From contig JAUNAB010000001.1 of the NCBI GenBank assembly GCA_030527795.1, forward strand, positions 1 through 64,000: a stretch of 64,000 nucleotides of DNA, given 5' to 3'. A program made the translations under genes and the position numbers. The notes under the pieces were generated by a model. The model made no database searches, was not told the DNA's origin, and saw only the letters and a program-made list of their open reading frames with translations. The stretch is from Pasteurellaceae bacterium. GTDB taxonomy: Bacteria > Pseudomonadota > Gammaproteobacteria > Enterobacterales > Pasteurellaceae. This document shows, one piece after another, positions 7,860 through 59,486 of this stretch; within the stretch, counting starts at the first letter, position 1; each line of letters begins with the position of its first letter.

Positions 7860-9077
7860 TTAACCAACAACAGCAGGTAATTTGCCTGCTTGAATTAAGA
7901 ATGGCACACAAACAATAAGTACGCCGATAATTAATGCCACAATAAGTGATAATTTTCCACCTTTCACGCGATAGGCTAAATTAGGGTATTGCACGCGGCT
8001 TTTCCATACCATTGCAATAGGCAGCACTATAGCATAGAAGGCAAACATTTGACCAGCGTAGCCCAAGGCAGCAATAAAGCCTTTTGGATAGAATAATGAG
8101 AACGCAAGTGGGGGTAAAAAGGTCAATAAACCAAGGCTTATGCGATTAGTTCTTACATTTACACGGTTCAATAAGTCTTCTAAACATTCAAATAAACCCA
8201 GTGCAACGCCAAGGAAAGAGGTAATTAAAGCCAGTGCAGAGAAAATGCGAATCGCATTTGCGATAAACGCACTGCCTGTGATGGCTTCAGTTGCGGTAAT
8301 TAAGCCGTTTAAGCTCGGATCTTTTTGGAGAATTTGCAAAAATTCAGTTTGGCTTAATACGCCGTGAGTAGTTAATTGCCACAATACATACGCCACTAAT
8401 GGAATAAATGTACCGACTAAAATCGCAATTTTTAAGGCTTTTACATTGCCGTCTAGGTATTTATTTAAGCTAGGAATGGAGCCATGGAAACCAAAAGCGG
8501 TAAAGAAAATTGGGCTAGCTGAAATGATTAACGCGTTATCAATTGGCATCGCTAACAAATTTTCTACCGCCATTTTCGGCATAAGTAAAAATAATACGAT
8601 GGCAAAGAACACGATTTTCGTGAAAAACAATATACGGTTTACTCGGTCAACACTGGTGGTGCCCATAATAATAAACACGCCAAAAAAAATCGTGAAAATG
8701 AGCACGGATAAGCTATCAAGTTGATTGCTATCTTGATTTAGCACCGAGGCTAAAACGGGGCTAAGAAGCGAACCGCCGCCTGACACATAAGCTGCAACTA
8801 GGGCGTAAAGAAAAATTAACAGCACGGCAGTGGAAACAATCCGTCCAAATTTGCCGTAATATTTTTCGGCGAGAGTGCCAATTCCCGCGTCAGGTTCAAC
8901 GGTTTGATATAGCTCCACAAAGAGTAATGCACTAAAGGATAATAATAGCCATAGTCCGATTAAGAGAACCGCTGTCCAAGTAAAGCCAATGCCAGCCGAA
9001 GTCAATGGCATCGCTAACATTCCGCCGCCGATGGTTGTTCCTGCGACAATTAATGTACTACCTAATGTTTTGTTCAT
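7860..9077 (-). CDS. tyrP: Aromatic amino acid permease, TyrP-like (first of a tandem pair)
   Basis: A 405-residue paralogue of the next gene, with the same HAAAP family helix-1 motif (GTTIGGGMLAMPLTSAGIGF) and about 11 membrane segments. It is the promoter-proximal copy. A TyrR-type box lies 56 bp upstream of the start, which agrees with a tyrosine or phenylalanine transport role. Divergence between copies is greatest in the segment around residues 95-170, so substrate preference may differ (inference). Tryptophan rather than tyrosine specificity cannot be excluded from sequence. Confidence 0.88.
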   Translation of the reverse strand: MNKTLGSTLIVAGTTIGGGMLAMPLTSAGIGFTWTAVLLIGLWLLLSFSALLFVELYQTVEPDAGIGTLAEKYYGKFGRIVSTAVLLIFLYALVAAYVSGGGSLLSPVLASVLNQDSNQLDSLSVLIFTIFFGVFIIMGTTSVDRVNRILFFTKIVFFAIVLFLLMPKMAVENLLAMPIDNALIISASPIFFTAFGFHGSIPSLNKYLDGNVKALKIAILVGTFIPLVAYVLWQLTTHGVLSQTEFLQILQKDPSLNGLITATEAITGSAFIANAIRIFSALALITSFLGVALGLFECLEDLLNRVNVRTNRISLGLLTFLPPLAFSLFYPKGFIAALGYAGQMFAFYAIVLPIAMVWKSRVQYPNLAYRVKGGKLSLIVALIIGVLIVCVPFLIQAGKLPAVVG

Positions 9078-9132
9078 AGTTTACCTTCCAAGATGATTAA
9101 ACATAGTGCATTGTAACCATAAAAAAATTATT

Positions 9133-9150
9133 TGTAACGCTTTTTTTACG
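9133..9150. promoter_or_regulatory. TyrR box-like operator upstream of the tyrP pair
   Basis: TGTAAC, six bases, TTTACG: 10 of 12 positions match the TyrR consensus TGTAAA-N6-TTTACA, and the key G and C keep the correct 15-base offset (9134, 9149). It lies in the promoter region of the tandem permease genes. Confidence 0.6.
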
Positions 9151-9233
9151 CTGTTTAGAATAGTTTACGATTAGGATCTTTATTCTGGTGATATAATGGA
9201 AAGGCGAAGCGTATTTTAGTTGAAAATCTGCTC

Positions 9234-9277
9234 AAACCGCGGTTGAAAATCCAAGGGATTTTTTGACCGCGGTCTTT
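9234..9277. terminator. Inverted uptake-signal pair downstream of purR
   Basis: ACCGCGGT occurs at about 9236-9243 and 9266-9273 in opposed flank orientation. It forms a hairpin between the purR stop and the tyrP promoter. The T tail on the purR strand is short, so termination may be partial. Confidence 0.55.
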
Positions 9278-9319
9278 CTGATATGAGCAAGATAGGGTTG
9301 GAAATCGAGTTAACGGATT

Positions 9320-58321: not shown

Positions 58322-58338
58322 CTTTTAACCTAACTAAT

Positions 58339-58383
58339 AAAACCGCGGTCAAAAAAACGTTTAAATTTTTGACCGTGGTTTTT
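58339..58383 (+). terminator. Terminator after nfeD (uptake-signal pair, one arm mutated)
   Basis: AAAACCGCGGTCAAAAA (from 58339) faces TTTTTGACCGTGGTTTTT; the right arm has one C to T change in the core. Confidence 0.8.
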
Positions 58384-58635
58384 ATAGTCGAGCCTTACTG
58401 CTTCGTTATCTTTAAAAATTTTAGAAAACGCTTGAAAATTATTATTCAGCTAGGAATTTAGTTTAAAGTTTACTAGAATCTGTCACGTTTTTTGCTGTGG
58501 GTGATATGGATTAATTAAGAAATGAAAATTGTTCATTTATTGTTCAAATTGATGATTCACTTCTTAAGTGTGAAAAATTTTTGGAATGCGGTTTTTTCAA
58601 GCCTGATTCCTCAAGGCTTCAACACCACCCCACAG
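58384..58635. other. Unassigned AT-rich stretch before the first CRISPR-like repeat
   Basis: No gene or clear signal. A small inverted repeat, AAGCCT (58600-58605) with AGGCTT (58615-58620), lies just before the repeat. If an array once existed, the 30-odd bases before 58636 would be spacer-sized, but no further repeat copy is seen to the left. Confidence 0.4.
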
Positions 58636-58672
58636 TCGGAAGACATGCCCTGTTATTAAAGGGATTGAGACA
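58636..58672. repeat. CRISPR-repeat-like sequence, copy A (37 bp)
   Basis: GTCGGAAGACATGCCCTG (left part) ... GGGATTGAGAC (right end). Internal palindrome CCCT-N8-AGGG and the ATTGAGAC end are typical of some CRISPR repeats. Only one intact copy is present, so this is not an array. A second, slightly degraded copy lies 721 bp downstream in the same orientation. Confidence 0.5.
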
Positions 58673-59041
58673 AAAAGAATTTTTGAGAGTTATCATTTAG
58701 GTAGTCTTTGTAATTCGTCAAGTTTTACAGAAAGTCAACAAAAAAGATGTCAAGGCGAAGTTGTTATTGATGTTCTAAAACAAGAACAAAATAGACGGGA
58801 TTTAGAAAGAGTTAATAAACGTATTAGTACAATCCAATCTATTCCAAAACGTATGCAAAGGACACAAAAGAAGCACAGGACTTATCTAATGCAATGCAAA
58901 CTCAAATAGCATTGCTAAATACAGATAAAATAGCAATGGATATTGCAAGAAGCAATGAAGATTTAGCGGAGAGAAAAGTACAAAAACAACATAAAAAACG
59001 AAATAAGAAGAATTTTACAAGAAGAAAGAGAAAGACTGTAA
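58673..59041 (+). pseudogene. VirB5/TrbJ-like conjugation gene, 3' remnant
   Basis: Joining three frames gives a continuous coiled-coil tail: ...QQKRCQGEVVIDVLKQEQNR..., then DTKEAQDLSNAMQTQIALLN and IAMDIARSNEDLAER, ending EIRRILQEERERL and a stop at 59041. Breaks lie near 58855 and 58990. The N-terminal half and signal peptide are missing. This pattern, and the eexN-like gene next door, fit the minor pilin VirB5 of type IV secretion. Identification rests on pattern and context. Confidence 0.5.
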
Positions 59042-59118
59042 TTTGTTATCTACTTATCTATTATAGTAGGTTATTTGTAACCTACTATATTCAAAATCAA
59101 ACTATAAGGAATTGAAAA

Positions 59119-59331
59119 ATGAAGAAACTGATTATTATTTTATTTGCTTTTATTATTGTAGGTTGTGATAAAACTATAACAATAGATTAATTTAAAAAAG
59201 ATGGAGTATTATTAAAGTCCTATCGTCAGAAATGTGAAAACGGGGAATTGCACCCTGAAGAATTAAACTGTATTAATTCTAGGAAGGCAGAAATGCAGTT
59301 GATATTAGAAGCAGAAAGAAAACGACTTTGA
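59119..59331 (+). pseudogene. EexN-like entry-exclusion lipoprotein gene with in-frame stop
   Basis: The ATG at 59119 begins a lipoprotein signal (MKKLIIILFAFIIVGC, lipobox VGC) and CDKTITID, then a TAA at 59188-59190 where the family usually has Glu (D-E-F), and the frame continues FKKDGVLLKSY...KCENGE...LNCINSRKAE to a stop at 59331. With one base change it would be a 70-residue EexN-type protein, which blocks redundant conjugation in plasmids and ICEs. Located between virB5 and virB6 remnants, its usual place. Confidence 0.6.
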
Positions 59332-59343
59332 TAAGGAACATTT

Positions 59344-59418
59344 ATGAGTGATGTAACAATATTTACTGATATTGGTAATCAAGTTTTAAATAGGTCGGAA
59401 GATATGCCCTGTTATTAA
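59344..59418 (+). pseudogene. VirB6-like gene, first codons only
   Basis: The ATG at 59344 reads MSDVTIFTDIGNQVLN, like the N-terminus of VirB6/TrbL channel proteins, and is then replaced from 59394 by the second CRISPR-like repeat, with a stop at 59416-59418. Truncated remnant. Confidence 0.45.
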
Positions 59419-59428
59419 ATGGGTTGAA
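59394..59428. repeat. CRISPR-repeat-like sequence, copy B (degraded)
   Basis: The first 26 bases match copy A except one C to T (GTCGGAAGATATGCCCTG...); then one T is inserted and the end reads GGGTTGAA in place of GGGATTGAGAC. It joins directly to the truncated virB6 start. Confidence 0.5.
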
Positions 59429-59441
59429 TTTTGAGTTGAAT

Positions 59442-59486
59442 AAAACCGCGGTCAAAAAACGTTTGAATTTTTGAGCGCGTTTTTTT
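59442..59486 (-). terminator. Decaying uptake-signal terminator downstream of the LysR gene
   Basis: TAAAACCGCGGTCAAAAAAC (from 59442) faces TTTTTGAGCGCGTTTTTTT; the right core has changed from ACCGCGGT to AGCGCGTT. The stem is weakened but still T-tailed. Confidence 0.6.

Follow-up and report, generated by a model that had tools for sequence, protein, structure and literature searches.

Anatomy of a relic CRISPR locus

Two 37-bp near copies lie in the same direction in the window (the whole 64,000-nucleotide stretch analyzed), separated by 722 bp: repeat A (58635..58671, + strand; GTCGGAAGACATGCCCTGTTATTAAAGGGATTGAGAC), which is leader-proximal and intact, and repeat B (59394..59430, +; GTCGGAAGATATGCCCTGTTATTAAATGGGTTGAATT), whose degenerate 3′ end is like that of a terminal repeat. 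The initial annotation had recognized the pair and its orientation, while its start of 58636 and distance of 721 bp are each corrected here by one nucleotide. The palindrome and repeat end that it described hold for copy A, whereas copy B keeps the palindrome only in part and ends in TTGAATT, not ATTGAGAC. The interval between them (58672..59393, +) is one continuous T4SS segment that replaces spacers. It comprises the 3′ part of virB5, encoding the C-terminal part and containing two frameshifts (58672..59041, +); a predicted eexN-like entry-exclusion lipoprotein gene with a TAA nonsense codon at 59188-59190 (59119..59331, +); and the start of virB6, 16 codons plus 2 nt truncated by repeat B (59344..59393, +). 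This gene content, first read from the letters alone, was confirmed by comparison with Pasteurellaceae elements, plasmid S25 of Aggregatibacter and T4SS contigs of genomes G015 and G050 being collinear with it. VirB5 homology is present from the very first codon beyond repeat A, leaving the left junction flush within about 1 nt. The virB6 start aligned with the beginning of VirB6 in G117, G015, G050 and S25, but this similarity is short and ends about 14 nt before repeat B, making the right junction less certain.

The cargo gene probably belongs to the same family as the IncN-type entry exclusion lipoproteins (NF033894, Eex_IncN). Its part downstream of the stop codon scored 19.6 bits (E 6.5e-4) against a curated cut-off of 33, while the intact relatives in G117 (53.1 bits) and G015 are above the cut-off. 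Unlike them, the cargo eexN is parted from its T4SS and lies in a CRISPR array and, in the window, carries a stop. The plasmid pVT745 is an Aggregatibacter plasmid as well. Entry exclusion has been reported for it and for IncN pKM101, where one protein bearing a lipid attachment motif is involved, according to titles cited in PMC7690428. With two frameshifts and one stop codon, the cargo in the window is decayed. eexN is oriented in the direction of array transcription, and a promoter scan around the insert gave matches no commoner than chance.

The repeat is confined to this locus. Its 21-bp core, allowing ≤3 mismatches, occurs at two sites in the whole genome, both here, with no dispersed copies elsewhere, compared to 0 expected in shuffled window sequence. 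A 30-mer of the repeat (≤3 mismatches) is absent from 139 other Pasteurellaceae genomes, neither a 28-mer nor a 24-mer had an exact match in IMG/VR or GTDB contigs, and the 37-mer matched plasmids and phages at chance level only. A degenerate core pattern recovered true arrays with a ~69-nt unit from GTDB contigs of Bacterioplanes, Leptothrix and others. Within the Pasteurellaceae, the family in which its relatives place the window genome, G039 contains seven copies of GTCGAAAGACCAGCCCTGTCATCAAAGGGATTGAGAY spaced 67-72 nt apart (contig C48) and adjoining Csm4, Csm5, Cas6, Csx16, Csx1 and Cas1, which identifies the array as type III-A. Arrays of the window-repeat class are also present in G010, G020, G114 and G028, and the terminal repeats of intact arrays show 3′ decay as in repeat B. 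Both 37-mers are CRISPR repeats, and their type III class is shared with other Pasteurellaceae, in keeping with the CRISPR-like character first attributed to them.

The 244 bp upstream of repeat A were identified as the leader (58391..58634, +). Leader and repeat have a 70% identical copy in the same genome (C22:63251-63570), and over its last 34 nt the leader shares about 80% identity with those of intact type III arrays in G020. The C22 copy (L068:9752-10071, - strand) is a second relic leader with a single decayed repeat; no array comes after it, and a large ORF of 1450 aa that resembles an autotransporter gene lies directly downstream. We rejected positions 58600-58634 as a 35-nt upstream spacer, as they lack a viral match and belong to the leader. 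Cas1, the cas gene sought genome-wide, is absent. Since a single 722-bp interval takes the place of ~35-nt spacers, none of which are present, the locus is an array relic and not a working array, of type III and probably of subtype III-A. Its repeat class, leader and degenerate terminal repeat are common to Pasteurellaceae type III-A arrays (e.g. G039:C48); it differs from them in its one long interval and in a genome without cas1. Near-identical terminator-like repeats lie in the same direction on either side of the locus (58336-58390 and 59439-59485), with similar copies in contigs C9, C18, C19 and C22 of the genome; these resemble uptake-sequence terminators. The genes flanking the locus are far apart in relatives where both were placed (e.g. 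G027), and no empty site was seen there.

Recurrence across genera and CRISPR types

Beyond what the initial annotation had considered, gene-sized inserts recur in other genera and in arrays of other types, and in two instances the cargo includes the same exclusion gene. In G117, from another Pasteurellaceae genus, a type I-C locus holds 689 bp of virB5'-eexN-virB6' between two perfect repeats, in the order cas5c-cas1c fusion remnant, cas2c, leader region, R1, insert, R2, 35-nt spacer and R3. R1 and R2 are identical and R3, the last repeat, has one change, the pattern that a duplication of the leader-proximal repeat during integration would leave. The segment starts about 190 bp deeper into virB5 and reaches further into virB6 than that of the window, and the different ends therefore indicate separate captures. 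The G117 eexN is intact. The cas remnant (L070, reverse strand, 8505-9293) is an in-frame fusion of the N-terminal part of cas5c with the C-terminal part of cas1c, apparently formed by a deletion that took out the intervening I-C genes. As a control, 30 eexN loci from other Gammaproteobacteria were examined for bracketing direct repeats; none had them (0/30), and the method recovered both Pasteurellaceae cases.

Cas1 was found in 101 of 140 family genomes, from which 120 regions were taken and 106 arrays with 2,421 intervals parsed, though some regions may overlap. Ordinary spacers in these arrays measure about 29-51 nt. Four further giant inserts were present among the 106 arrays, all phage-derived and 548-1343 bp long. 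The type III insert of G028 (548 bp) has two ORFs in array direction, the second of which encodes a full 92-aa protein that has a single hydrophobic segment, its stop codon abutting the repeat. The I-C insert of G005 (738 bp) covers a phage S-T interval: gene S is present from residue 46, at the first base of the insert, together with a complete antiparallel hydrophobic ORF of 64 aa and the beginning of the tape-measure gene T. The II-C insert of G039 (753 bp) likewise holds the end of S, a frameshifted antiparallel hydrophobic ORF and the beginning of T, with weaker similarity than in G005 and about 50 nt without assignment at one end. The II-C insert of G099 (1343 bp) consists of phage genes about 70% identical to those of IMG/VR phages, none of which has an obvious role in exclusion. 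The S-T tail interval with its small antiparallel membrane-protein ORF is thus held independently by two inserts, and in the same interval Mannheimia phage phiMhaA1 encodes ORF14, an antiparallel hydrophobic protein. The phage membrane ORFs had no family match, and searches for donors of those in G005 and G028 returned none. HK97 gp15-like superinfection exclusion proteins are also small membrane proteins, whose exclusion depends on tail tube/tape measure genes (PMC10883804). The G005 and G039 ORFs adjoin the tape measure gene, but they differ from the gp15-like proteins in lacking a sequence family match and in lying antiparallel within a P2-like S-T interval, and their exclusion function is putative. 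Cargo ORFs are intact in G117, G005 and G028, and broken in the window and G039.

Other long intervals were seen in the survey. In G043, the terminal interval of a II-C array (L207:6745-8171) contains a phage tail-completion gene fragment that shares a PHROG with gene S of the G005 insert; it is split by an IS element and was left out of the count for this disruption. The I-C array of G005 also contains duplicated spacer blocks (L116:11330-11965), a repeat-mediated rearrangement in an array with a giant insert. Several gaps were rejected as giant inserts: those in Leptothrix (L018, L029) separate complete arrays, each with a terminal repeat and leader; those in G114 and G020 hold cas1-cas2 between two arrays; and that in G100 (L146) contains masked sequence together with a gene resembling a phosphodiesterase.

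Origin of the giant inserts

Taken as a whole, the window locus is best read as a relic type III locus that captured a gene-sized, exclusion-gene-bearing piece of a conjugative element, kept it for a time on account of that gene and has now decayed, a reading to which we assign a probability of about 55%. The capture of conjugative-element DNA and the anatomy of the locus are well supported; the integration mechanism and selection for exclusion are what we infer beyond them. Type III repeats, leader homology, a flush collinear insert, the G117 case and the four phage inserts all support capture. Among the origins offered by the initial annotation, capture of plasmid or ICE DNA in a former array is the one that agrees with the repeat class, the leader, the terminal type of repeat B and the flush mobile-element segment. 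The others made the 37-mer part of a mobile element, as its own mini-array or an integration or excision (att) site, and not of a host CRISPR locus; a transposon end would be a further reading of this kind. Two copies do flank mobile-element DNA, but the insert holds only virB5', eexN and virB6' with no transposase, integrase or other recombinase, the leader has a chromosomal paralogue, and G117 bears unrelated I-C repeats around the same cargo. Moreover, the repeat is missing from the T4SS relatives among the 139 genomes, and the virB regions of intact T4SS relatives are uninterrupted. A mobile-element origin of the repeat is already contradicted by these observations and is very improbable.

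Because the insert lies at the spacer position, flush with the repeats, whatever process brought it in kept to the repeat boundaries. The most likely such process would be aberrant Cas1-Cas2 integration of a long prespacer, with duplication of the repeat. The leader would then have driven transcription of the cargo, and before it decayed eexN probably shielded the cell against related conjugative elements, with the protein and not a crRNA bringing about the exclusion. Spacer length is normally set by Cas1-Cas2, which counts against direct integration of long DNA. In Mannheimia, the PAM of type I-C is GAA/TTC (PMC4771134). Direct integration guided by this PAM would call for TTC immediately beyond the left ends of the two I-C inserts (G117 and G005); as judged from homologous proteins, different codons are expected at these places, so PAM selection lacks support.

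Homologous recombination would produce the same flush ends: if two former spacers matched virB5 and the virB6 start, a double crossover with the element could have replaced everything between them. Pasteurellaceae are naturally DNA-uptaking, which favors such an exchange. Furthermore, in erm(N)-bearing arrays the spacers on either side of the gene are duplicated, which points to recombination (PMC11823653). Recombination nevertheless predicts a TTC PAM before the last 34-36 nt of the I-C inserts, which is missing in G117 and G005. Five of the six giant inserts measure 548-753 bp, whereas two protospacers drawn at random from a 30-kb element would usually be many kb from each other; a limit set by fragment size or by a minimal gene is a better fit to these sizes than the chance spacing of two spacers. 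We consider this route unlikely.

The inserts could also be neutral debris, mobile-element DNA caught by chance in dying arrays, with the exclusion genes coincidental. The broken cargo of the window and G039, the lost cas1 of the window genome, the cas5-cas1 deletion fusion of G117 and the cargo of G099 without an obvious exclusion gene would all agree with this. However, cargo ORFs remain intact in three inserts, a T4SS locus with the whole eexN was captured twice, and so was the S-T phage interval. By after-the-fact figures, a random piece would contain the complete exclusion-type ORF in about 1.3-1.7% of cases per insert (about 1.6% for eexN with a ~700-bp piece of a 31-kb plasmid, about 1.3% for the S-T ORF with a ~740-bp piece of a 34.6-kb phage), and two random pieces would overlap at all, whatever the function, in about 4-5%. 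The inserts also persist at the oldest array end, lying at or beside the degenerate end (simulated p about 0.007), which for II-C arrays is the old end by assumption. Pure coincidence thus appears improbable to us, and the distribution of cargo, noticed after the fact, suggests that exclusion-type genes are over-represented in giant inserts.

Precedent and implications

In the usual view, CRISPR memory is made up of short guides, their length fixed by Cas1-Cas2. The nearest described precedent for a foreign protein-coding gene between CRISPR repeats, as with eexN in the window and G117, is erm(N), which lies within the repeats of a Campylobacter coli CRISPR-Cas9 locus, is expressed and is useful to the cell (PMC11823653); gene-bearing arrays are therefore not unheard of. 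erm(N) is a resistance gene at one locus type in one species, whereas the cargo described here is putative mobile-element exclusion loci, spread over several genera and arrays of three CRISPR types. It is flanked by duplicated spacers on both sides, while the window has no spacers and G117 a single one on one side only. In the open-access papers searched, erm(N) was the only long or gene-bearing spacer found, and they yielded no report of exclusion genes in arrays or of gene-sized inserts recurring across CRISPR types. The spacer extraction of one study drops fragments >45 bp (PMC12714723), so giant intervals can be discarded and may be under-reported.

From sequence comparison, the survey suggests that Pasteurellaceae arrays repeatedly capture gene-sized pieces of mobile elements. 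If so, their recurrence across three CRISPR types would imply a length rule that leaks in nature, with arrays able to serve as landing sites for entire protective genes. More tentatively, and with some doubt, we propose that, next to ~35-nt guides, CRISPR adaptation has a second product, gene-sized "giant spacers", and that those carrying exclusion genes (eexN from plasmids, membrane proteins from phage tail regions) are kept as protein-coding immunity that does not depend on the cas effectors and outlives them. The exclusion-gene bias yields a clear experimental prediction. By itself the window locus is a decayed relic; its value is as a lead to a repeated, directly testable pattern, in which CRISPR arrays may on occasion acquire entire protective genes as well as short guides.
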